From Alloalcanivorax xenomutans (GTDB lineage: Bacteria > Pseudomonadota > Gammaproteobacteria > Pseudomonadales > Alcanivoracaceae): DNA of 64,000 nucleotides. The stretch spans positions 124,001-188,000 of the forward strand of contig NZ_OBMO01000001.1 in NCBI RefSeq assembly GCF_900217905.1, given 5' to 3'. Shown in pieces: positions 21,921 to 43,443 of this stretch. Made by a program: the position numbers and the translations under genes. Numbering within the stretch: the first letter of the stretch is position 1; each line of letters opens with the position of its first letter. The notes beneath the pieces were generated by a model. It had not been told where the DNA came from. It made no database searches and saw nothing but the letters and a program-made list of their open reading frames with translations.

Positions 21921-23678
21921 ATGAGACGCCTTACTCGTCGTGATTTTATTCGTGCCTCGGCGCTGGGCATGGGCGCGGTGGTGGTATCCTCCGGCCTGAC
22001 CGGCTGCGGCGGCTCGTCCTCAAACCGCAATTCGGACAATGGCAATGAGCGCCTGGTGGCGTTCCACCATGGCGTCGCCAGCGGCGACCCGCAGACCCAG
22101 GGCGTCATTCTGTGGACCCGGGTGACCCCGGAAGACGGTGATACCTCACCGGTATCCGTGAGCTGGGAAGTGGCCAGTGACGCGGACTTCACTCAACTGG
22201 TCAATGAGGACAGCACCGAGGTCCGGCAAGCCTACGACTATACCCTCAAGGTGGATGTTCAAGGGCTGGAGCCCGGCAAAACCTACTACTACCGCTTCCA
22301 TGCCGCCGGCGTCACCTCCCCGGTAGGCGTTACCCGCACCCTGCCGGAAGGCAATGTGGATCAGGTCACCTTCGCGGTGCTGTCCTGCTCCAACTATCCA
22401 GCGGGCTTTTTCCATGTCTACGCCGAGGCCGCCAAGGAAGCACGGCTGGATGCGGTACTGCATCTGGGTGACTACCTCTATGAGTACGCCACCGACGGCT
22501 ACGACGGCGACCAGGCCGAGGAGATGGGCCGCGCCCTGCCGGAAAACAACGACCTGGAAATGATCCAATTGGTGGATTACCGCCGCCGCTATGCGCTCTA
22601 CCGCACCGACCCGGACCTGCAGGCCCTTCACGCCAAGGCGCCGTTCATCGCCGTTTGGGATGACCACGAAATCGCCAACGACGCCTGGATGGAAGGCGCC
22701 GAGAACCACGATCCGGCCACCGAAGGCGATTATCTGATGCGCAAGCAGCGCGCCCTGCAAGCCTACTTCGAGTGGATGCCGATCCGGCCGTTCGACGACA
22801 ACGACCGGGAAATCATCTACCGCAGCTTCCACTATGGCGACCTGGTCAGCCTGCACATGCTCGACACCCGCATCATCGGCCGGGACGAGCAGCTCAGCTA
22901 TACCGATTACCTGACTGATACCGGCCTCGACGCGGAGGCGTTCACCGCCGCGGTCACCGATCCTAATCGGCACCTGCTCGGCACCACGCAGTTGAACTGG
23001 CTCAGTGAGGCACTTGCCACCTCCAGCGCCACCTGGCAGGTACTGGGCCAGCAAGTGCTGATGGGACGCATGCTGATGCCCGCGGAAATGCTGCAGGGCC
23101 TGCTGGCTCCGGCCCCCGAGCTGGTCACCCTTATTGAAGAACTGACCACTCTGAAAGGACGCTATCTGCAAGGCGACCCAACCCTGACCGAGGAAGAGAT
23201 CGCCCGTATCACCACTGTCCTGCCCTACAACCTGGACGCCTGGGACGGCTACATGGCCGAGCGCGAGGTCCTGCTGCAAACGGCCAAGCAGTTGGGCAAG
23301 AACCTGGTGGTGCTGGCCGGCGACACCCACAATGCCTGGGCCAGCCATCTCACCATTGACGGCGGCGAGGGCAAGCAAAGCGTCGGCGTGGAACTGGCCA
23401 CCGCCTCGGTGTCCTCGCCGGGCCTTGAGTACTATCTGCAATTACCTACCGAAGCCATTCCCCAGGCGGAGCAGGCCATCACTCTGCTGGTGGATGACCT
23501 GCAGTACCTCAACGCCAGCCAGCGCGGTTATCTGCGAGTCACCTTCACCGCCGAGGAAACCCGGGCGGACTGGCGTTTTGTATCCACGGTGAAAAGCAGC
23601 GACTATCAGGTGGACGAGGCACGCGGGTATTCGATGACGGTGCAGGCAGGGAGTCCGGCTCTGACCCAGGCGGACTGA
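21921..23678 (+). CDS. phoD: PhoD-family alkaline phosphatase/phosphodiesterase, Tat lipoprotein
   Basis: 585-residue exported enzyme that cleaves phosphate mono- and diesters. The N-terminus has a Tat motif (RRDFIRAS) followed by a lipobox (LTGCGG, Cys about residue 29), so it is probably a folded, Tat-exported lipoprotein. A PhoD N-terminal domain (FHHGVASGDPQTQGVILWTR) precedes the metallophosphoesterase core: LHLGDYLYEY, AVWDDHEIANDAW and VLAGDTHNAW, the metal-binding residues of PhoD. ATG follows AGGGAAGAG. It opens a run of four phosphatases (phoD, two PhoA types, PhoX), although its neighbours lie on different strands. Calcium/iron dependence is known for PhoD and assumed here. Confidence 0.94.
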   Translation: MRRLTRRDFIRASALGMGAVVVSSGLTGCGGSSSNRNSDNGNERLVAFHHGVASGDPQTQGVILWTRVTPEDGDTSPVSVSWEVASDADFTQLVNEDSTEVRQAYDYTLKVDVQGLEPGKTYYYRFHAAGVTSPVGVTRTLPEGNVDQVTFAVLSCSNYPAGFFHVYAEAAKEARLDAVLHLGDYLYEYATDGYDGDQAEEMGRALPENNDLEMIQLVDYRRRYALYRTDPDLQALHAKAPFIAVWDDHEIANDAWMEGAENHDPATEGDYLMRKQRALQAYFEWMPIRPFDDNDREIIYRSFHYGDLVSLHMLDTRIIGRDEQLSYTDYLTDTGLDAEAFTAAVTDPNRHLLGTTQLNWLSEALATSSATWQVLGQQVLMGRMLMPAEMLQGLLAPAPELVTLIEELTTLKGRYLQGDPTLTEEEIARITTVLPYNLDAWDGYMAEREVLLQTAKQLGKNLVVLAGDTHNAWASHLTIDGGEGKQSVGVELATASVSSPGLEYYLQLPTEAIPQAEQAITLLVDDLQYLNASQRGYLRVTFTAEETRADWRFVSTVKSSDYQVDEARGYSMTVQAGSPALTQAD

Positions 23679-24048: not shown

Positions 24049-24747
24049 TCAATCAAGCAGGTCCGAGTAGTCCCGGTTCTTGTAACCTTTCAGGGTAGTC
24101 CAGGGAGCCGGCTCCGGATCGGCGATTTCCCTTGCCTCGATGGTGCGGCCGGACAAACCGTGTTCGTCCCGGGAACGGATGGACACCGCGTAGCGGCGCT
24201 CGGGATTCCACACCAGGGTGATATGCTGGGAGCCACGTTGCATCTGGTAGGTTTCGACACCGTCAGCCACCGAGGACGGCTCCAGGGAAGACAGGCTGGC
24301 CGGATCCACCAGCGCCCAGGTTTCCACCCAGTGGCCGTCGTAGCCTACGTTGCCATAATACGGCGGCGCGATATCGATCAGACGCTGTTCGTAACGATCC
24401 ACCAATTTGACGTCGACGTTGCCGCTGTCATCCCGCTGAATCCACAATGGCGCGCCTACCACGTCGGCGTGTTTGTGGCCAAGACCACCATGATGATGAT
24501 CATCGTGATCCCGTTGTGCCGCCTCGGGCACTTCCCGTTCCACCCATAGGGTGTTTTCCTGCCGGTACAGTTTTTCCGCGTAGGACAACTCCTGCCGCAC
24601 ACCGTCCTTGCCCACCTGCCACTGGTGGTACTCCACGCGCAATGCGGAAGCGGCTTCCGCCCAGGCGGCCGCCGGCCAGGCCAGGGCCATCACCACCCCC
24701 AGCATGCTCAGCCGGGCCAGACTTTCGATTCTTCCAACAAGCATCAT
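24049..24747 (-). CDS. His-rich exported protein, unknown function
   Basis: 232-residue protein with a signal peptide (MLGVVMALAWPAAAWAEA). The mature part reads as beta-rich (LRVEYHQWQVGKDGVRQELSYAEKLY). A histidine cluster HDDHHHGGLGHKHAD lies near residues 81-95, a likely metal-binding loop. No enzyme motif is seen. Two adjacent ATG codons could start it, and neither has a strong ribosome binding site. It lies between phoD and the tandem alkaline phosphatases, on the same strand as the latter but beyond their terminator, so it is probably transcribed alone. Zinc or calcium handling for the phosphatases is only a guess. Confidence 0.75.
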   Translation of the reverse strand: MMLVGRIESLARLSMLGVVMALAWPAAAWAEAASALRVEYHQWQVGKDGVRQELSYAEKLYRQENTLWVEREVPEAAQRDHDDHHHGGLGHKHADVVGAPLWIQRDDSGNVDVKLVDRYEQRLIDIAPPYYGNVGYDGHWVETWALVDPASLSSLEPSSVADGVETYQMQRGSQHITLVWNPERRYAVSIRSRDEHGLSGRTIEAREIADPEPAPWTTLKGYKNRDYSDLLD

Positions 24748-24874: not shown

Positions 24875-26281
24875 TCAGAGCCCCATGGCTTCGTGGATCA
24901 AATCAAATACTTCCACGTTATCCAGGGTACCTTTGAACAAATCGCTGCCGGCGCCGCCCGCGTTCAAGCGAACATCACCGCCACCGTGAGTTTCAGTGCC
25001 CGGTCCACCCAGTTTCACGCCCACTTCCTGCAGGTAATCGTCCTGCAGCACTTCGTCCTCGGTCAACGTGGCCCGATCCGCTTCACGGGGGCCGCCGCCA
25101 TTACCGAACACCAGGGTAGTGAAGGGCTTGCCCTGAGCGTCCAGCGCCAGCCCGCCGGTGCGGTATTCCTTCAACAAGCCAAGCACCGGATTACCGATCT
25201 TGGAGTAACCATTGAACGCCATGACGTGATCGTGATCCGCGGTAACGATGATCAGAGTATTGTCCAGATCCACTTTTTCCATGGCAGCGGCAATGGCCTG
25301 GTCGAATGCCAGCGTGTCCTCCAGCGCGCGCTTGGCATTGGTGCCGTGCAGCGCGTGGTCGATACGGCCGCCCTCCACCATCAGGAAATAGCCGTCCTGA
25401 TTGCGGGACAGGATATCGATGGCGGTGCTGGTCATCTCCGCCAGACTCGGCTCATCCAAATCGTTATTGACCCGATCCAGCTCGTAGTTCAGATCACTGC
25501 TGTTGAACAGACCCAACAGTTTGTCCGTGCTGCCCGGATCGACATTGCCCAGCTCCGAGCCACTGCTCACGTAAGTGTAACCGGCGTCCTGCATTTCCAT
25601 GATCAGATCGCGGTCATCACTGCGGCGCCCCTCGGGGGCCGGCAGGAAGTGACGGCGGCCACCCCCCAGGATCACATCGATACCGTCGGCCCCCAGCGCA
25701 CTGTTATAACCGTCACCGCCGGGCACCATCTGCGTGGCAATGGTATTTTCAGCATTGCGGTTACAGATATGAGCATAGGTAGTAGCAGGCGTTGCATGGG
25801 TGATACGCGTGGTGGTCACCACGCCAGTGCCGTAGCCCTTGGCCTTGAGGATCTCGAGCAGGGTTTCCGCCGCCTCACCGTTACCGGTTTCCGGGCAGAG
25901 GCTGTCACCATCGCTCTGGTACGGATTGCCATCATCATCGTTGGGGTTGGTATCCGGCGTCATCGAAATCACTTCGTTCTTGGATTTCATGCCGGTCATA
26001 TAACTGGCCATACCGGGAGCGCTGTCGGTGGTCTGGGCGTCCTCGGAGTAGGTCTTGATGCGCGCGGCGTAGTCCAGCTTTTCCATCGCCAGTATATGGG
26101 TCTCCGGCACTTCCAGTCCGGCTTTTTCACCGGCGTAAATGCGTGCCGCGGTTTGTGTTACCGGGCCCATGCCGTCACCAAGGAAGAAAATAATGTTCTT
26201 GGCCTGAGCGGCGCTGACCGGCTGGGTCATCAGAGAGGCGGCACAGCAGATCAGTGCACCGCCAATAACGGAACGTTTCAT
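24875..26281 (-). CDS. Periplasmic alkaline phosphatase, PhoA superfamily (second copy)
   Basis: 468-residue secreted phosphomonoesterase. The signal peptide ends near PVSAAQ. Catalytic parts are visible: metal site GDGMG, nucleophile Ser in TDSAPGMASYMTG, EGGRIDHALH, TADHDHV and the final zinc His in ETHGGGDV. It is closely similar to the gene upstream (26308-27744), with long identical stretches such as THATPATTYAHICNRN and GGGRRHFLPA, so the two arose by tandem duplication. ATG at 26281 follows AGGAGAG. It starts 26 bases after its paralog and shares its transcript. Confidence 0.93.
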   Translation of the reverse strand: MKRSVIGGALICCAASLMTQPVSAAQAKNIIFFLGDGMGPVTQTAARIYAGEKAGLEVPETHILAMEKLDYAARIKTYSEDAQTTDSAPGMASYMTGMKSKNEVISMTPDTNPNDDDGNPYQSDGDSLCPETGNGEAAETLLEILKAKGYGTGVVTTTRITHATPATTYAHICNRNAENTIATQMVPGGDGYNSALGADGIDVILGGGRRHFLPAPEGRRSDDRDLIMEMQDAGYTYVSSGSELGNVDPGSTDKLLGLFNSSDLNYELDRVNNDLDEPSLAEMTSTAIDILSRNQDGYFLMVEGGRIDHALHGTNAKRALEDTLAFDQAIAAAMEKVDLDNTLIIVTADHDHVMAFNGYSKIGNPVLGLLKEYRTGGLALDAQGKPFTTLVFGNGGGPREADRATLTEDEVLQDDYLQEVGVKLGGPGTETHGGGDVRLNAGGAGSDLFKGTLDNVEVFDLIHEAMGL

Positions 26282-26307
26282 GTTTCTCTCCTGCTTTAAT
26301 TGGCGGT

Positions 26308-27744
26308 TCAATCCAGATCCAGGGCGGCCTTGATCTTGCCGAAAACTTCGGTGTTGTCGATGACACCGTGGAAGACGTCGGCCCCCATACCAACCGCCCC
26401 CAGGAATACGTCACCACCACCGTGGGTTTCACTGCTGAGCTGAATGACCGCTTCCTGCAGGTAGTCATCCGCGGCGGTTTGGGTCTCCGTCAACGCGACG
26501 CGGGTAGCGGGACGATTCGGGCCATTACCGAAACCGAGAATGGTGTAGGGGTTACCATCAACATCGGTGCGCGGCTCCCCTTTGTTCGGACCGTTGGCGT
26601 AGTTACGAACCATGCCCAGAACACCGGCATGCTCCTCCGTGGTCTTGCCGGTACGCTCGGCGTAACCATTAATCACCAGAGTGTGATCATGGTCCGCGGT
26701 GACCACGATCAAAGTGTTTTCCAGACCCGGATCAATCTCTTCCATTTTCTCCAACGCGGTTTTTACCGCGTTATCGAACGCGATGCCGTCGGTCAGGGCA
26801 CGCTTGGCACTGGTGGCGTGCAGCGCATGGTCAATACGGCCGCCTTCTACCATCAGAAAAAAGCCATTGTCACGGGGGCTGAGCAAATCGATGGCCTTGC
26901 CGGTCATTTCCGCCAGGCTCGGCTCCTGCGTGGGAATGCGGTCAAGCTCATAGCTCATATCGCTGCTGGTAAAAATGCCAAGCAACTTTTTGGTGTCGTC
27001 GGCCACACTCATCAAGGCATCGGTGTTGTCCACGTACTGATAGCCGGCGGCTTGCATTTCCTCGATCAGGTTGCGGCCGTCGGTACGGCGACCGCTCTGA
27101 TCCGCGGGCAGGAAGTGACGGCGGCCGCCACCGAGCATGACGTCGACACCATCACCAAGGGCGGCATTGAAGCCGTCCCCGCCCGGCACCATCTGCGCGG
27201 CGATGGTGTTTTCACCATTCCGGTTGCAGATATGGGCGTAGGTGGTTGCCGGAGTGGCGTGAGTAACCCGGGTGGTGGTGACCACGCCGGTCGCGAATCC
27301 CTGCCCTTTCATCAGCTCCAGCAGCGTTTCGACCGGAGCGCCGTTATCCTGCTCACAAGTGCTGTTGCCGTCAGCGTCCACGTATTGGGAACCGTCCGGT
27401 GCATAAGCATTGGTGGCGGTGCTCATGGAGATAACTTCATTCTTCATCTTCACGCCGGTCATGTAAGCGGCCATGGAGGGCGCGCTATCGGTCACCTGAC
27501 CATCCGCGGAGTAGGTACGGACGAAAGCGGTTTCCGGCAGTGTATCGATAGTGATGCTACCCGCCTCGCCAGCCTCGAAGATGCGCATGGCGGTCAACGT
27601 GGTGATACCCATGCCATCACCCAGGAAAAACAATACGTTTTTTTTGGTGGTGGCTGGTGGCGGCGCATCATTGCTGTCGCTGTCACTGCCGCATCCGGTC
27701 AGCGTTACGGCCAGGGCGAGCCCCGCCATTTTGAGCATTTTCAT
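26308..27744 (-). CDS. Alkaline phosphatase lipoprotein, PhoA superfamily (first copy)
   Basis: 478-residue phosphomonoesterase with a lipoprotein signal (MKMLKMAGLALAVTLTGC). It is therefore membrane-anchored where its paralog downstream is soluble. Catalytic motifs match: GDGMG, TDSAPSMAAYMTG, EGGRIDHALH, TADHDHT and SSETHGGGDV. The ATG at 27744 is chosen because it follows AGGAAG and starts a clean lipoprotein signal; upstream ATGs to 27807 would add about 20 residues before it. A PHO half-site CTGTCAT lies about 82 bases upstream. It is first in a two-gene unit with the soluble copy. Confidence 0.93.
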   Translation of the reverse strand: MKMLKMAGLALAVTLTGCGSDSDSNDAPPPATTKKNVLFFLGDGMGITTLTAMRIFEAGEAGSITIDTLPETAFVRTYSADGQVTDSAPSMAAYMTGVKMKNEVISMSTATNAYAPDGSQYVDADGNSTCEQDNGAPVETLLELMKGQGFATGVVTTTRVTHATPATTYAHICNRNGENTIAAQMVPGGDGFNAALGDGVDVMLGGGRRHFLPADQSGRRTDGRNLIEEMQAAGYQYVDNTDALMSVADDTKKLLGIFTSSDMSYELDRIPTQEPSLAEMTGKAIDLLSPRDNGFFLMVEGGRIDHALHATSAKRALTDGIAFDNAVKTALEKMEEIDPGLENTLIVVTADHDHTLVINGYAERTGKTTEEHAGVLGMVRNYANGPNKGEPRTDVDGNPYTILGFGNGPNRPATRVALTETQTAADDYLQEAVIQLSSETHGGGDVFLGAVGMGADVFHGVIDNTEVFGKIKAALDLD

Positions 27745-27825
27745 CAGCACTTCCTGTCTCATCGTCATGTCTTCGGCCCCCAACTGGGCAAGGGGCCACC
27801 CCGGCAAGGAGTATTCGAAATGTTT

Positions 27826-27981: not shown

Positions 27982-27999
27982 TTGTCATTTTTCTCTCAT
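27982..27999 (+). promoter_or_regulatory. PHO box upstream of the PhoX-like gene
   Basis: TTGTCAT-TTTT-CTCTCAT matches the PhoB direct repeat CTGTCAT-N4-CTGTCAT at 12 of 14 positions with the exact 11-base period. It lies 69 bases before the start codon. This is the best PHO site in the window. Confidence 0.75.
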
Positions 28000-28067: not shown

Positions 28068-29837
28068 ATGTCTCTGAGGAACGACGCTTTTAAACTGGGC
28101 GCGCTGGCGGTTGCCATTTCCATGGCATTGACCGGCTGCGGTAGCGACAGCGACAACGATGACAACGTCGGCGGCGACCCTGATCCGCAGCCGCAGATGG
28201 AACGGCTGACCCGTATCGCCACCCTGCCGCTTGGCGCGGAAGCCACAGGGCTGTTCTTGAAGGAAGACGGAGAGGTCTTCACCAATATCCAGCATCCTTC
28301 CGACGCCAACGTCACCCAGGATGCGGACGGTAACACCTACAGCCTGGCCACCGTAGGCGTGATCGAAGGCGCCGATGTCAACGAACCCTTCGAATCCGTT
28401 TCCGTGCCGGAAACCGACGAAGAGAAACAGGTGATGCGCGTGGCCCTGGGCCGCTACAACGTGCTGGGGCAGCAGGGCAAGGACTGGGGCGGCGCGCCTG
28501 AACCCAGCGGCCTGGGCGCCATCAACGTGAAGGACGGCAGCGCCACCATTCGTGTTTCCAACGACCCGGATTTCAATGGCTGGATCCCGGTCAGCGAAAA
28601 CGAAGGTTATCTGTTCACCAACTGGGAAGACCGCCCCGGGGGTATGAGCCGGCTACACCTGATGCGCGACCAGGATGGCCGTTGGACGGTACAGGATAAT
28701 GATGCCTCCATGGTGGATTTCTCGGCAGTGAACGGCACCTGGGTGAACTGCTTCGGCACCGTGTCCCCCTGGAACACCCCGCTGACGTCGGAAGAACTGT
28801 ACTTCGACGACACCATTGACTGGAACAATGAAAACTACCCGTACTATGGTCAGGCGCAGGATCTGGCGGACTATCTGGCCGGCGAGATCAACACGGATTA
28901 CAACGCCACCTTCCCGAACCCCTACGATTACGGCTACATCGTCGAAATCACCGACCCCACTGGTGCACCGACACCGGTAAAACATTTCACGCTGGGTCGC
29001 TACTCCCACGAAAACGCCGTGGTTATGCCCGACCAGAAGACCGTCTATATGAGCGATGATGGCGGCGGCGTGATCCTGTTCAAATTCGTGGCCGACGCCG
29101 CCGGCGACCTGAGCAGCGGCACCCTGTACGCGGCCGCCGTTCAACAGGACACCGTGCCCATGGACGCCGCCCAGGCCGGTTTCGATATCGAATGGGTGGA
29201 GTTGGCCAGCGGCAACAACGCCGAGATCGAGGGCTGGGTGGACGAATACGACGGCATCACCCCGAACGATTACACGGAAGGTGCCAACAGCTACATTAGT
29301 CAGCAACAGATTGACGACTGGGCGGAGAGCAAGCTCGGCGAGGATCTGGACAACAGCGGCGACGTGGCTGCCAACCCGTTCGGCGATGATCGCGTGGCCT
29401 TCCTGGAGTCTCGCAAAGCGGCGGTAGCCCTGGGTGCCACCGGCGAGTTCAACAAGATGGAAGGCATCAACGTCAACATCGAGCGCGCCAAGGCAAGCGT
29501 CGAAGGCGACGGTCCGCAGGCCTACGTCTACGTGGCCATGTCCGACATCAGCGGTGCCATGACTGACAGCGAAGGCCTGGTGCAGCTGACCAACGAAGAT
29601 GCCAACTGTGGTGGTGTGTTCCGCATGCCTCTCGGCGCTAACTACGATGTAGCCCGCCTGGAAATGGTGGAGCTGGGTGGTCCGTATCAGCCCGAGGACG
29701 CCGCCAACACCTGCAGCGTGGACGGGCTTTCCGGCCCGGATAACGTAGCGGTCATGAACGATGGCCGCGTGCTGATCGGCGAGGACACCGGCGGTCACGA
29801 AAACAACATGGTGTGGTTGCTGGATCCGGAAGGCTGA
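28068..29837 (+). CDS. phoX: PhoX-like phosphatase lipoprotein (DUF839)
   Basis: 589-residue exported protein with a lipobox (MALTGCGS, Cys about 24) and an acidic linker (GSDSDNDDN). The beta-propeller core shows PhoX hallmarks: GTWVNCFGTVSPWNTPLTSEE (about residues 222-242), YFDDT, GRYSHENAVVMPD near residue 309, and the end segment PDNVAVMNDGRVLIGEDTG. Classical PhoX is Tat-exported; here the N-terminus lacks twin arginines, so Sec export is more likely. It probably binds Ca2+ and Fe3+ as PhoX does. A PHO box precedes it. A terminator separates it from the cytochrome gene. Confidence 0.87.
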   Translation: MSLRNDAFKLGALAVAISMALTGCGSDSDNDDNVGGDPDPQPQMERLTRIATLPLGAEATGLFLKEDGEVFTNIQHPSDANVTQDADGNTYSLATVGVIEGADVNEPFESVSVPETDEEKQVMRVALGRYNVLGQQGKDWGGAPEPSGLGAINVKDGSATIRVSNDPDFNGWIPVSENEGYLFTNWEDRPGGMSRLHLMRDQDGRWTVQDNDASMVDFSAVNGTWVNCFGTVSPWNTPLTSEELYFDDTIDWNNENYPYYGQAQDLADYLAGEINTDYNATFPNPYDYGYIVEITDPTGAPTPVKHFTLGRYSHENAVVMPDQKTVYMSDDGGGVILFKFVADAAGDLSSGTLYAAAVQQDTVPMDAAQAGFDIEWVELASGNNAEIEGWVDEYDGITPNDYTEGANSYISQQQIDDWAESKLGEDLDNSGDVAANPFGDDRVAFLESRKAAVALGATGEFNKMEGINVNIERAKASVEGDGPQAYVYVAMSDISGAMTDSEGLVQLTNEDANCGGVFRMPLGANYDVARLEMVELGGPYQPEDAANTCSVDGLSGPDNVAVMNDGRVLIGEDTGGHENNMVWLLDPEG

Positions 29838-29859
29838 GTACGCCCTTCGGACCCATACC

Positions 29860-29890
29860 GGGGAGGAGCGTCTGGCGCCCTCCCCGTTTT
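29860..29890 (+). terminator. Terminator-like hairpin after phoX
   Basis: GGGGAGG...CCTCCCC with inner GCG/CGC pairing, followed by GTTTT. The short T-run suggests partial termination, which would allow some read-through into the cytochrome gene at 29932. Confidence 0.7.
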
Positions 29891-29931: not shown

Positions 29932-31572
29932 ATGAAAGCACTACTTTACGCGACCGGAATCGCTATGGCCGGCCTCGCTCTCGTCGGCTGCGATCAAAAC
30001 GACAGCAACACAGAGATCGGCGACACGGTACCTGCCGCCGCCCTGGAGCGGAAACTCCCGCCGAACCTGTCGACCATTTATAACCAGGAGGCACCGATTC
30101 CGCCGCAGTGCTATACCCGCACCGAGGGCCAGTTCAACCCCTGCTACACCTGCCACCAAACCTACCCCGACCGGGGCCGGCCCAACACCATGGGCGACGG
30201 CTACCTGCAAGGGAGTTACGATTTCTCCGAGTTGGGGGAAACCAATCACTGGCTTAACCTGTTTGTCGACCGCCGCGAAGCCGTGGCCAAAATGGACGAC
30301 CAGGCAATCCTGGACTACATCAACCAGGACAACTACACCGATTACATGAAGAATCTCGCCGACTCCAATGACTGGAGCGGACCGGTACCCTATATCGAGA
30401 ACCTGGCCAACGGCTCCGCTGCTTTCGATGATCTGGGCTTCGCCAAGGACGGCAGCAACTGGGTGGCGTTTAACTATAAGCCGCTGCCCAGCACGTTCTG
30501 GCCCACCAACGGCAGTACCGATGACGTCATGGTGCGGCTGCCGGAAAAATTCCGCGCCAGCACCTGTCAGGCTGGTGAATCCCGCGACGTCTATCTGGCC
30601 AATTTGTCGCTGATGGAAATGGCGATCAAGGAGCTGGATAGTATCGATACCCCGCCCCTGGACGAGCAAGCGGTGTGCACGGACCTGGACGGTGACGGGC
30701 GGCTCGCCACTGCCACCACCCTGCTGCGCCGCGACCACTACCTGGGCGCCGCCGCGGACGTGCCAGTGGTGGACATGCTGTACCCCGTGGGCATTGAGTT
30801 CCTGCACACGGTACGCTATGTAGGCGTGGGCGAGGACGGCACCATCGGGGTGCCGAAGCGCATGAAGGAAGTGCGTTACATGAACAAAATCCGCTTCTAC
30901 GACACCAGTCACCTGCGCTCACTGTTCGCCAACGAGCACCAGGAAAAAATGGAAGGCAATCTGCCCACCTACGCCAACCATGGCGATCGAGGCATGGACA
31001 ACGGCTTTGGCTGGATGGTGCTGGGCTTCATCGAAAAGGCGGACGGCAGCCTGCGCCCGCAGAGCAACCAGGAACAGCGTTTCTGTATGGGTTGCCATAC
31101 CACCATTGGCACCACCATTGACCAGACCTTCGCCTTCCCGCGCAAAGTCACCGGTGCCGAGGGTTGGGGCTACATCGATCTGAAAGGCATGCCGGATGCG
31201 CCGGCACTGAATCAACCGCTGGGTGAAATCGCCCAATACCTCGGTCTGGTCGGTGGCGGTAACGAGTTCCGTGAGAATGGTGAAATGCAAACACGCTGGT
31301 TCAACGAGGACGGCAGTATCGATCTGGAAAAAGTAGCCAAAGCCGATGTCTACGAGCTGATCACGCCGAGCCGCGACCGCGCCCTATCACTGAACAAGGC
31401 CTACAAGTTGATCGTCGAGGAACAGAGCTTCCTGTACGGCCGCGATGCCACTCTGGCGCCGGCGGAAAACGTGTTCCGTCATATCAACCCGGACGACATC
31501 ACACCCCTGAAACCGGAAAAACGCATCGACGGCTATGAAATTCGACTGGATTGGTCCGCTGACACGGACTGA
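29932..31572 (+). CDS. Diheme cytochrome c lipoprotein, unknown function
   Basis: 546-residue exported protein with a lipobox (LALVGCDQ, Cys 20). Two covalent haem sites are visible: CYTCH at residues 71-75 and CMGCH at 385-389, more than 300 residues apart. Between them lie segments such as NHWLNLFVDRREAVAKMDDQ, VPVVDMLYPVGIEFLHTV and MKEVRYMNKIRFYDTSHL. I do not recognise the family; the wide haem spacing and length are unlike MauG or simple cytochromes. It follows the PhoX-like gene by 94 bases on the same strand and ends at a bidirectional terminator. A role in electron transfer at the outer or inner membrane is likely; the link to phosphate is from position only. Confidence 0.85.
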   Translation: MKALLYATGIAMAGLALVGCDQNDSNTEIGDTVPAAALERKLPPNLSTIYNQEAPIPPQCYTRTEGQFNPCYTCHQTYPDRGRPNTMGDGYLQGSYDFSELGETNHWLNLFVDRREAVAKMDDQAILDYINQDNYTDYMKNLADSNDWSGPVPYIENLANGSAAFDDLGFAKDGSNWVAFNYKPLPSTFWPTNGSTDDVMVRLPEKFRASTCQAGESRDVYLANLSLMEMAIKELDSIDTPPLDEQAVCTDLDGDGRLATATTLLRRDHYLGAAADVPVVDMLYPVGIEFLHTVRYVGVGEDGTIGVPKRMKEVRYMNKIRFYDTSHLRSLFANEHQEKMEGNLPTYANHGDRGMDNGFGWMVLGFIEKADGSLRPQSNQEQRFCMGCHTTIGTTIDQTFAFPRKVTGAEGWGYIDLKGMPDAPALNQPLGEIAQYLGLVGGGNEFRENGEMQTRWFNEDGSIDLEKVAKADVYELITPSRDRALSLNKAYKLIVEEQSFLYGRDATLAPAENVFRHINPDDITPLKPEKRIDGYEIRLDWSADTD

Positions 31573-39755: not shown

Positions 39756-41603
39756 TTACTGCCCCCGCATGAACAGGCGATCCAGGTCCTTGACACTCAT
39801 CTGGGTCCAGGTCGGGCGACCATGGTTGCATTGCCCGGAACGCTCGGTGGCTTCCATGTCCCGCAGCAGGGCGTTCATCTCCGGAATGGTCAGCTTGCGG
39901 TTGGCGCGTACGCTGCCGTGGCAGGCCATGGAGGACAACAGCGCATCCAGATGCTGCTCGATACGCTCACTGCTGCCGTGGGCGAGCAGATCGGAAAGCA
40001 CATCGCGAACCAGCGTCTCGCTGTCGGCGTTACGCAGCAACACCGGCACTTCCCGCACCATCAGGGTTTCCGGCCCGGCCCGCTCCACCGCGAAACCGAG
40101 ACGCTGGAACACTTCCGGCTGCTGCTCGGCGAAATCCGCCTCCCGTGACGACACCGCCATGGACACCGGCACCAGTAAGGGCTGCCCACGCACTTTCTCC
40201 TCGGCCCAGTCCCGCTTGAGCCGCTCATAGGTGATGCGCTCATGGGCCGCGTGCATATCCACCAGCACCATGCCGTGCTCGTTCTCAGCAATGATGAAAA
40301 TGCCGTGGATCTGCGCCACCGCGTAGCCCAGCGGCGGCGTCTGGCCCGGTTCCGGCGCCGGCATCGGCATGGCTTCCGGGCGGGGCGTCACCAGCGAACC
40401 ATAGGCACTGGCCTGGCGGTCACCATCGGCAACCGATGGCGGCGGGCGATAAGCCGGCGCCGCGCCCCCACCCTGGTACCCATTTCCACTGACACCCGCC
40501 CCACTGTCGCGGGCCTGAGTCAACGGCATGGCGCCTTGAGTCGGCGCTGACCAGGACGGCATGGCCTGCGGTGACGCCGGCACATCCAGCCGGTCCGCCG
40601 GGCGCACCTCGGCGATCGCCCGATGCAGGGTCCGATAGAGGAAGTCATGGACCATGCGCTGCTCGCGGAAACGCACTTCGTGCTTGGTGGGGTGCACGTT
40701 CACATCCACCAGGGCCGGATCCAGTTCCAGGAACAGCACGAACGCCGGGTGGCGGCCATGGTAGAGCACATCGGAGTAGGCCTGCCGTACCGCGTGGCTG
40801 ACCACCTTGTCGCGAATCACCCGGCCATTGACGTAAAAGTACTGCAGATCCGCCTGGGAACGGGAGAAGGTCGGCAGTCCGAGCCAGCCGTGCAGGCGCA
40901 GGCCGGCGTGGGACACGTCCACCGGCATCGATTGTTCCATGAAGGCACTGCCGCACAATCGCGCCACCCGGGCAGCCCGCAGCGCCTCGTTGTCGCCACT
41001 GGGCAGTTGATGCACCACTTTCTGGTTGTGGCTGAGCCGGAACCCGGTCTGGAACTCACTCAGGGCGATGCGCCGGAACACTTCCTCCAGATGGTTGAAC
41101 TCGGTTTTCTCGGTGCGCAGGAAGCGACGCCGGGCCGGGGTGTTGAAGAACAGGTCACGCATGGTCACGGTGGTGCCGCGCGGATGCCCCGCCGGCGTCA
41201 CCGACGGGGCCATGTCGCGGCCTTCCACCACCACTTCCCAGCCTTCCGCCTGCTCACCGGTGTTGCTGGTCAGGCTCAGCCGCGACACCGAACTGATCGC
41301 CGCCAGCGCCTCACCGCGGAACCCCAGGGTACCGATGGCTTCCAGGTCCTCGGCCACATGGATCTTGCTGGTGGCGTGCCGGGACAACGCCAACGGCAGT
41401 TCGTCCCGCTCGATGCCGCCGCCGTCGTCGCGAACCCGGATCAGCTTGGTGCCGCCCTGCTCCACGTCCACGGTGATCTGCCGGGCACCGGCATCCAAGG
41501 CATTTTCCAGCAGTTCCTTGAGTACCGACGCCGGCCGTTCCACCACCTCGCCCGCGGCGATCTGGTTGGCGAGGCGGGAATCCAGCAGTTGAATCTTGGA
41601 CAA
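39756..41603 (-). CDS. mutL: DNA mismatch repair protein MutL, endonuclease type, TTG start
   Basis: 615-residue mismatch repair ATPase. GHL ATPase motifs: [28 protein letters not shown]. The C-terminal region carries [12 protein letters not shown], which fits the DQHA-X2-E-X4-E endonuclease motif with Met for Gln, and the late ACHGSVRAN. So this MutL probably nicks DNA itself, as in pseudomonads, rather than relying on MutH. The start is a TTG at 41603 ([20 protein letters not shown]) with GGGAG 7 bases upstream; no ATG fits better. Confidence 0.95.
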
Positions 41604-41651
41604 AATGGTCTCCCGGGGTCGCGGCCCCTGCTTTATTTCCGCTTTCCGGGA

Positions 41652-43004
41652 TCAGGAGCCCGGAATGGTCAGCAACTGCCCCACCACGATACGGTCGCCG
41701 TTGAGATTGTTGGCGGCGCGCAAGGCGTCCTCGGACACCTGATGGGCACGGGCGATGGCGGACAGGGTATCACCGGGCTGGATACGGTACTGATCCCCCT
41801 GCTGCCGGCGCTGGGCGGCGAAGTAGCTGTTCGGAGCCGGGTGGGTCTGGAAATAGCGTTTAACGCCATTGGTCACCGCCCTGGCGATACGAGCCTGGTG
41901 GGTACTGGAACGCAGCAGGCCCTCTTCCTCGCGGTTGGAAATAAACCCGGTCTCCACCAGCACCGATACCATTTCCGGCTCCTTCAATACGGCGAAGCCG
42001 GCCTGCTCCACCGTGGTCCGGTCTCCATGCAGCTTGGTGACACCGTTGAATTCCTGCAGGATCTGCCGCCCCAGATAGAGACTGTGCGCCATGGAGCCGG
42101 ACATGCGCATGTCCGCCAGCACGCTGAGCAGGTTGGAGTCGTCCTTCTCTTCCTCGTAGACCCCGGCGACGCGGTCGGATTCGTTGGCGATCTTGGCCAG
42201 ATAACGGGCCCGGGCACTGGTGGCACCGCTGTTGGACAGCGCGAACACACTGGCGCCCCGGGCGCGGGCATCGGTGAAGGCATCGGCGTGGATCGAGATG
42301 AACACGTCGGCGTGATTATCCTCACGGGCGATGCGTCGGCGCTCCGCCAGCGGCACATAGTAGTCGCCATCACGCACCAGTACCGCGCGCATGCCAGGCT
42401 CGTTGTTGATCATGTTGTAGATCTTCTTGGCGATCTGCAGCACCACCACTTTTTCCTTGGTGCCCCGGGGTCCTCGGGCGCCGGGATCCTCGCCGCCATG
42501 CCCGGCATCCACCGCGACGATCATTTCACGGGGCTTTTCCGCCGAGGCCTTGGGTTTGGGAATGGTCTTCGCCGGCGGCGGATCCTTGTCGAAGAGATCC
42601 ACCACCAGACGCCAGCCATGCGGCGCTACCGGTTTCAGCAGATTGGTGCGCGGCCGCACCGCCGCCTTGAGGTCGAATACGATGCGGGTTTTGTCCGCAT
42701 GCTGTCCCACACGGATATCCGCCACCGGCCCGTTACCCGCATCCAGCGTTTTCACGTCAAAGTTGAAATCGGTGTCCATCAGGTCCACCACCACCCGGTC
42801 CGGGTTGGCGAGGACGTCCACTTTGTGCTCCACCGGGTCCGGCAGATCAAACACCACCCGGGTATGATCCGGAGCCCGGTGCATGCGCACGGAATCCACT
42901 TTCACCGCCGCCTGTGCCGCCATCGTCAGAAGGCCGCCCAGCATGCCGAGAAGCAGACGCCATGCCATCATTCCGCGGACGGACTTTCGCTGATTTACAC
43001 CCAT
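41652..43004 (-). CDS. amiB: N-acetylmuramoyl-L-alanine amidase AmiB/AmiC type with LysM
   Basis: 450-residue periplasmic zinc amidase that cuts septal peptidoglycan. After a signal peptide (MLGGLLTMAAQAA) come an AMIN domain (about residues 30-130), an Amidase_3 domain with VAVDAGHGGEDPGARGP (zinc His), SIHADAF and VETGFISN, and a C-terminal LysM (YRIQPGDTLSAIARAHQV). Start at ATG 43004; an ATG at 43034 overlapping tsaE is possible. It lies between tsaE and mutL as in E. coli. Confidence 0.94.
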   Translation of the reverse strand: MGVNQRKSVRGMMAWRLLLGMLGGLLTMAAQAAVKVDSVRMHRAPDHTRVVFDLPDPVEHKVDVLANPDRVVVDLMDTDFNFDVKTLDAGNGPVADIRVGQHADKTRIVFDLKAAVRPRTNLLKPVAPHGWRLVVDLFDKDPPPAKTIPKPKASAEKPREMIVAVDAGHGGEDPGARGPRGTKEKVVVLQIAKKIYNMINNEPGMRAVLVRDGDYYVPLAERRRIAREDNHADVFISIHADAFTDARARGASVFALSNSGATSARARYLAKIANESDRVAGVYEEEKDDSNLLSVLADMRMSGSMAHSLYLGRQILQEFNGVTKLHGDRTTVEQAGFAVLKEPEMVSVLVETGFISNREEEGLLRSSTHQARIARAVTNGVKRYFQTHPAPNSYFAAQRRQQGDQYRIQPGDTLSAIARAHQVSEDALRAANNLNGDRIVVGQLLTIPGS

Positions 43005-43011
43005 AGTTCGG

Positions 43012-43443
43012 CTATGCCCACTCCAAATTCGCATTACGCCCCGGCGGCTGCACGGTCAGTGTCACGGTGAGATCCGGCGCCGGAATCACCCCCGCGCCTT
43101 TTTGCGGCCATTCCAACACACACAGCCCGTGGCCGTCGAAATAATCCCGGATGCCGATCAACTCCAGCTCCTCGGGATCCGCCAGCCGGTACAAGTCAAA
43201 ATGATAGATATGGACGCCATCGAGGTCATAGGGTTCCACCAGCGTATAAGTCGGGCTCTTCACCGCCCCCTGGTGTCCCAGCCCCCGCAGCAGCCCGCGC
43301 ATCAGGGTGGTCTTGCCCGCCCCCAGGTCCCCCAACAGGTAAACGCATTGGCCGGATTCGAGCACGGCGGCCAATTCCGCGCCCAAGGCCAGAGTGGCCG
43401 TCTCGTCCGCCAGATAGCGGGACCCGGTTGGTTTATTTTCCAT
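43012..43443 (-). CDS. tsaE: tRNA threonylcarbamoyladenosine biosynthesis ATPase TsaE
   Basis: 143-residue ATPase that works with TsaB and TsaD to make t6A in tRNA. Walker A is [27 protein letters not shown] and [19 protein letters not shown] are characteristic. Its ATG lies 11 bases inside the nnr reading frame, so translation is coupled. Confidence 0.95.

Follow-up and report, generated by a model that had tools for sequence, protein, structure and literature searches.

A dihaem lipoprotein of Alloalcanivorax xenomutans, here named CYT, is very probably a dedicated redox partner of PhoX-superfamily enzymes that are exported through Sec. Its gene lies in a 64,000-nucleotide window (the whole stretch of DNA analyzed), where the gene order runs from a PhoD through two PhoA genes and a PhoX-like gene to CYT:

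21921..23678, plus strand: PhoD-type phosphatase (PF09423, E=2.5e-115)
24875..26311, minus strand: second PhoA-type alkaline phosphatase (PF00245, E=9e-105)
26308..27807, minus strand: PhoA-type alkaline phosphatase, divergent neighbour of the PhoX-like gene (PF00245, E=3e-104)
28068..29837, plus strand: PhoX-superfamily lipoprotein, circularly permuted (PF05787, E=2.2e-33; alignment with 3zwu; permutation)
29932..31572, plus strand: dihaem cytochrome lipoprotein CYT, 546 aa (ORF, homologues, conservation)

The phosphatase cluster described in the original prediction is borne out by these Pfam assignments. Two other reading frames of the window attracted our attention. One (24049-24747, minus strand) adjoins the PhoA genes, is kept in related Alloalcanivorax loci and encodes a 232-aa protein with a His/Asp-rich stretch (HDDHHHGGLGHKH) and no Pfam match; the other (40623-43070, plus strand) is an 815-codon ORF with no Pfam match at E 0.001.

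The CYT reading frame begins with ATG, runs for 546 codons and contains the following features:

29932..29991, plus strand: signal peptide and lipobox LVGC with lipidated Cys20 (from the sequence; gammaproteobacterial homologues are mostly predicted lipoproteins too)
30109..30111, plus strand: Cys60, 100% conserved, outside the haem motifs
30142..30156, plus strand: haem site 1, CYTCH, residues 71-75 (its two Cys and its His 100% conserved)
30349..31167, plus strand: P460/cytochrome c'-beta-like domain, residues 140-412 (AlphaFold model, VIA-align, sub-threshold PF16694)
30805..30807, plus strand: His292, candidate distal residue, 100% conserved
31084..31098, plus strand: haem site 2, CMGCH, residues 385-389, closing the P460-like domain (motif, model, structure match, conservation)

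The two CxxCH sites are 314 residues apart, in agreement with the earlier description of a 546-residue lipoprotein with two such sites more than 300 residues apart, and conservation of both motifs reaches 100% across 108 distinct homologues drawn from several phyla. This invariance excludes chance occurrence of the motifs. As an exported protein with CxxCH haem-binding motifs, CYT is predicted to be a c-type cytochrome. Among the 108 homologues, His292 is the only invariant histidine beyond the haem motifs, and Cys60 has no equally conserved cysteine with which to pair (C212 and C249 are each conserved in ~30%).

The CYT gene is single-copy in its source genome. Of the 46 genomes of the family, 20 have a homologue, as do 19 of the 369 genomes of the class. 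When each species was represented by one genome, at least 525 encoding stretches turned up. The matches listed include some in Gammaproteobacteria and Alphaproteobacteria and in metagenome-assembled genomes labelled Acidobacteriota and Candidatus Binatia, and the closest named relatives among them are from Alloalcanivorax. Three matches lie in plasmid records, one annotated "hypothetical protein" and two without a feature under the match. In one homologue that has no PhoX neighbour (L071), the loop joining the conserved strand to the second haem region contains a His/Asp/Glu-rich insertion that could bind metal; because it is present in L071 alone, we rejected a His-rich metal-binding loop as a feature of the family.

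Consistent with the original prediction, which recognized no family for CYT, searches of Pfam and NCBIfam returned sub-threshold matches only, and neither the single sequence nor a profile found a significant sequence relative in the PDB. The best Pfam match was PF16694 (Cytochrome_P460), which covers residues 353-392 and scores 16.9 bits where the cut-off is 27; one homologue (L113) scored 18.7 bits. Structure comparison went further. In an AlphaFold model of CYT (mean pLDDT 85, pTM 0.86), residues 140-412 aligned by VIA-align with 7ead (Z 4.8; 126 of 135 residues, 3.3 A) and 6hiu (Z 4.7), and the top 13 rows were all P460/c'-beta proteins (Z 3.1-4.8), in a list that held no other haem family, an absence that by itself proves nothing. 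Haem site 2 falls at the position corresponding to the haem motif of these proteins. P460/c'-beta proteins also ranked first in Foldseek, with a best E of just 0.11. The search suggested at the outset yielded no family over cut-off but pointed to a resemblance of the C-terminal haem domain to P460/c'-beta.

Like members of this group (PF16694; 6hiu, 7ead), CYT appears from its model to have a beta-rich domain closed by a CxxCH helix. However, CYT is almost four times longer, carries a second haem at its N-terminus, falls under the PF16694 cut-off, and is encoded in a phosphatase rather than a nitrogen context. By strand order, in an alignment made by eye, His292 apparently replaces the cross-linking lysine of P460. 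HHalign of the CYT profile against P460 gave weak local matches (probability 36-67) in the same register around the CxxCH. Kinship of domain 140-412 with P460/c'-beta is therefore likely but not proven, as the profile-profile matches are weak and local and the support comes mainly from the modelled fold.

A PF05787 gene adjoins CYT in 97 of the 108 distinct homologues, which upholds the recurring PhoX pairing that the original prediction proposed to look for and leads us to reject the view that CYT homologues are scattered independently of PhoX or without phosphatase neighbours. BLAST detected 91 of these PhoX-like neighbours (77 upstream on the same strand, 11 downstream on the same strand and 3 on the opposite strand), and a divergent PF05787 protein is encoded close to CYT in 6 of the remaining 17 loci (L070, L123, L133, L146, L151 and L158). 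Most of the other loci are contig ends (L064, L076, L078, L097 and L110); L071, L113 and L135 have no PhoX neighbour, and in L130 one lies ~5 kb off. Adjacency is kept despite swaps in gene order and across several PhoX subfamilies. Furthermore, among 369 genomes 16 encode both proteins, 3 only CYT, 10 only the PhoX-like protein and 340 neither (P ~1e-18). Pairwise identities of CYT and its partners are correlated (r = 0.91; shuffling gave 0.18 at most), a value to which shared species history contributes. No CYT-PhoX fusion was noticed in the loci examined.

Two distant homologues (L082 and L083) have outer-membrane barrel and FMN-binding genes nearby instead of PhoX, and at 7233-12513 of L083 the homologue stands in a row with Porin_O_P (the barrel), FMN-binding and PepSY genes. 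Adjoining the CYT homologue of L123 (4389-7628) is a gene for a 1079-aa lipoprotein in which a collagen-like stretch and DUF7151 are followed by two tandem PhoX domains, and L206 (G285:C76) has a PhoX-like domain within a very large ORF of more than 2600 residues. Collagen-like GxxGxx stalks follow the lipidated Cys in many paired PhoX-like lipoproteins (L093, L101, L127, L138 and others).

The PhoX-like partner in the window scores well above the PF05787 cut-off (116.7 bits against 24), and its model aligns over residues 105-589 with residues 10-518 of the 3zwu chain (381 residues, 3.3 A, Z 20.9). Its N-terminus carries the PhoX C-terminal segment with the motif E.TG...QHP: residues 581-644 of the organism's own canonical PhoX align with residues 42-106 of the partner. 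The partner is thus a circular permutation of canonical PhoX. The same permutation is found in 81 of 91 CYT-paired PhoX-like proteins; the other 10 fell outside the automatic test, and the 7 of them whose C-termini were inspected show the canonical PhoX order, with this segment C-terminal. CYT therefore accompanies both segment orders alike.

C228, E315, D331 and E465 of the partner are the counterparts of canonical Cys179, Glu273, Asp292 and Glu387 (P. fluorescens numbering), which we take, in part from PMC11098088, to form the PhoX Fe/Ca site. At the position of canonical Arg385 the partner has Lys463, and the same Arg385-to-Lys change is present in the active phosphatase Psip1 (PMC11098088). 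Because Psip1 is active with this change, the partner is, judging from its residues, probably still a phosphatase. Compared with canonical PhoX (Pseudomonas fluorescens; 3zwu, 4a9v), the partner shares the PF05787 superfamily and the metal-site Cys and Glu residues, but it is a Sec lipoprotein rather than a Tat substrate, has Lys for Arg385, carries the last ~60 PhoX residues at its N-terminus and has a dihaem gene next door. Psip1, which is active with Fe plus Ca, likewise has a PhoX-like site with Lys for Arg385 and is not described as Tat-exported (PMC11098088). Psip1 is, however, described without recognizable PhoX identity or conserved domains and no cytochrome is mentioned for it (PMC11098088), whereas the partner matches PF05787 (E=2e-33) and has CYT. 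Psip1 has been described as convergent with PhoX, and the shared Arg385-to-Lys change raises the possibility that it is permuted.

The paired proteins also differ from canonical PhoX in their route of export. All 20 canonical PhoX proteins examined have twin-arginine signals (19 recognized by pattern and 1 by eye), and a CYT homologue lies near none of them. In contrast, none of the 97 CYT-paired PhoX-like proteins has a clear Tat signal; they have Sec or lipoprotein exports instead, the six divergent PF05787 partners included (by inspection of their N-termini). Three Tat pattern matches occurred among the 91 BLAST-detected partners, one in an over-extended start (L154) and two ambiguous (L067 and L147), in which twin arginines precede an otherwise Sec- or lipoprotein-like signal. 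Membrane anchors match within pairs, with both proteins mostly lipidated or, in alphaproteobacteria, both unlipidated (Fisher P 8e-5, with a crude predictor by which some lipoboxes are missed). Because Tat-exported PhoX is largely a single clade, descent confounds the Sec/Tat contrast. PhoX-like proteins without CYT include 2 with Tat signals and at least 6 with Sec or lipoprotein signals. Because of these six or more, Sec export alone does not imply CYT, and a strict rule that Sec-exported PhoX needs CYT was rejected.

The pair carries a Pho regulon motif, making it a candidate for control by phosphate starvation. Two elements of the locus may bear on its expression:

27982..27999, plus strand: candidate Pho-box, TTGTCAT-TTTT-CTCTCAT, 12/14 matches, with its end 68 bp upstream of the PhoX-like start
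29859..29886, plus strand: GC-rich hairpin followed by UUUUCC between the PhoX-like and CYT genes, a possible attenuator (from folding)

When Pho-boxes were scored as upstream direct repeats of CTGTCAT with an 11-bp period and a threshold of 11/14, 25 of 87 same-strand pairs had one. Over 300 permuted motifs the count averaged 1.8, and the next best of these were near-variants of the Pho-box itself. The leaky terminator that the original prediction placed before CYT fared less clearly. The hairpin with UUUUCC makes it plausible, but the fold is weak (MFE -27.9 kcal/mol, z -1.8; equalled or bettered by 12 of 200 shuffles) and was not listed in the terminator scan.

We hypothesize that CYT serves as a phosphate-starvation-controlled redox partner of PhoX-superfamily enzymes that would leave the cytoplasm unfolded through Sec. 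It has been argued that export through Tat lets PhoD and PhoX acquire their iron while still in the cytoplasm (PMC4223295), and canonical PhoX, leaving folded through Tat, could accordingly load its iron there. Sec-exported relatives would have to build their Fe3+/Ca2+ cofactor outside the cytoplasm. CYT, exported to the same place, would oxidize Fe2+ to Fe3+, either at the PhoX site or on its behalf, or would re-oxidize it, and electrons would pass between the P460-like haem and the N-terminal haem and then to the periplasmic chain. We infer the physical contact, the direction of electron flow and the ferroxidase or maturase chemistry in this scheme. The Sec-versus-Tat contrast lends it support, but CYT is not universally required, because at least 6 Sec or lipoprotein PhoX-like proteins occur in genomes without detectable CYT. 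The mechanism as a whole, in which CYT oxidizes iron or keeps PhoX iron ferric during Fe-Ca cofactor assembly outside the cytoplasm, is one that we favour tentatively. More speculative still is its most specific form, in which the Fe-Ca cofactor of often permuted PhoX enzymes exported through Sec would be built outside the cytoplasm by a dihaem P460-like ferroxidase or maturase under Pho control, as an alternative to Tat pre-loading. The core idea of the original prediction, a redox partner for PhoX, survives on the strength of the 97/108 adjacency, and of its two options iron oxidation is the one that we favour, helped by the contrast in export.

MauG and bacterial dihaem peroxidases have two c-type haems and a partner gene, which for MauG is methylamine dehydrogenase. 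CYT resembles them in its two haem motifs and strictly paired partner gene, and CYT and the PhoX-like proteins alike have many invariant Tyr, Trp and Cys residues. CYT might accordingly modify its partner oxidatively (e.g., by a covalent residue cross-link) rather than act on its iron. However, searches of Pfam and NCBIfam that admitted matches with E up to 1 returned no MauG/CCP family, the matching second haem domain is P460-like, and no modification site is evident, which together make a MauG-like maturase unlikely. Similarly improbable is surface chemistry in which CYT would reduce or oxidize extracellular iron under phosphate starvation, freeing phosphate or iron with no direct action on PhoX. 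The Pho-box would fit such a role, as would the two PhoX-less distant homologues beside FMN-binding genes, one of them also beside Porin_O_P and PepSY. Yet it leaves unexplained why a Sec-exported PhoX is the specific neighbour across subfamilies, and genes for an outer-membrane electron conduit were not noticed next to the pair.

The likeness of residues 140-412 to P460/c'-beta, whose members bind NO or oxidize hydroxylamine (PMC11928373), raises a further possibility: CYT might carry out small-molecule chemistry of this kind (on NO, peroxide or hydroxylamine) and be merely co-regulated with PhoX, for example shielding its Fe site from NO or peroxide. This would not predict near-obligate adjacency to PhoX, and the apparent His at the cross-linking lysine position in the by-eye alignment also counts against it, so we consider it a poor prospect. 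Least probable is that the pair is an oxidoreductase acting on reduced phosphorus, the phosphite or phosphonate option of the original prediction, with the PhoX-like protein binding substrate and CYT taking the electrons; a unit that combines a redox protein with a promoter motif for phosphate starvation would suit it, but the partner keeps the PhoX metal-site residues with Arg385 to Lys as the sole change, one also present in active Psip1 (PMC11098088), and the examined parts of the island revealed no phosphonate or phosphite genes.

Beyond the original prediction, the analysis added the P460/c'-beta likeness, the circularly permuted partner and the Pho-box of the pair. We found no published account of the CYT-PhoX pair in the open-access literature, a coverage that most subscription journals lie outside. 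The system possibly represents known kinds of protein in a new combination (a PhoX system with a P460-like dihaem protein), and might be categorically new if a maturation role were shown.

In the sea and in soils PhoX is a major phosphatase, and the iron that it requires is believed to couple phosphorus limitation to iron limitation. The pairing with CYT points to a dedicated redox helper for some phosphate-scavenging enzymes, which is unexpected for a phosphatase. It also hints at a function for a family that databases leave unnamed, and adds a dihaem architecture apparently near the P460/c'-beta fold. It also makes the ferric iron supply of Sec-exported PhoX-like enzymes directly testable by a single gene deletion. 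If CYT is such a widespread redox partner, part of the PhoX world would assemble or maintain its iron site by a route absent from the open-access papers searched, and phosphate scavenging could depend on haem and electron flow.
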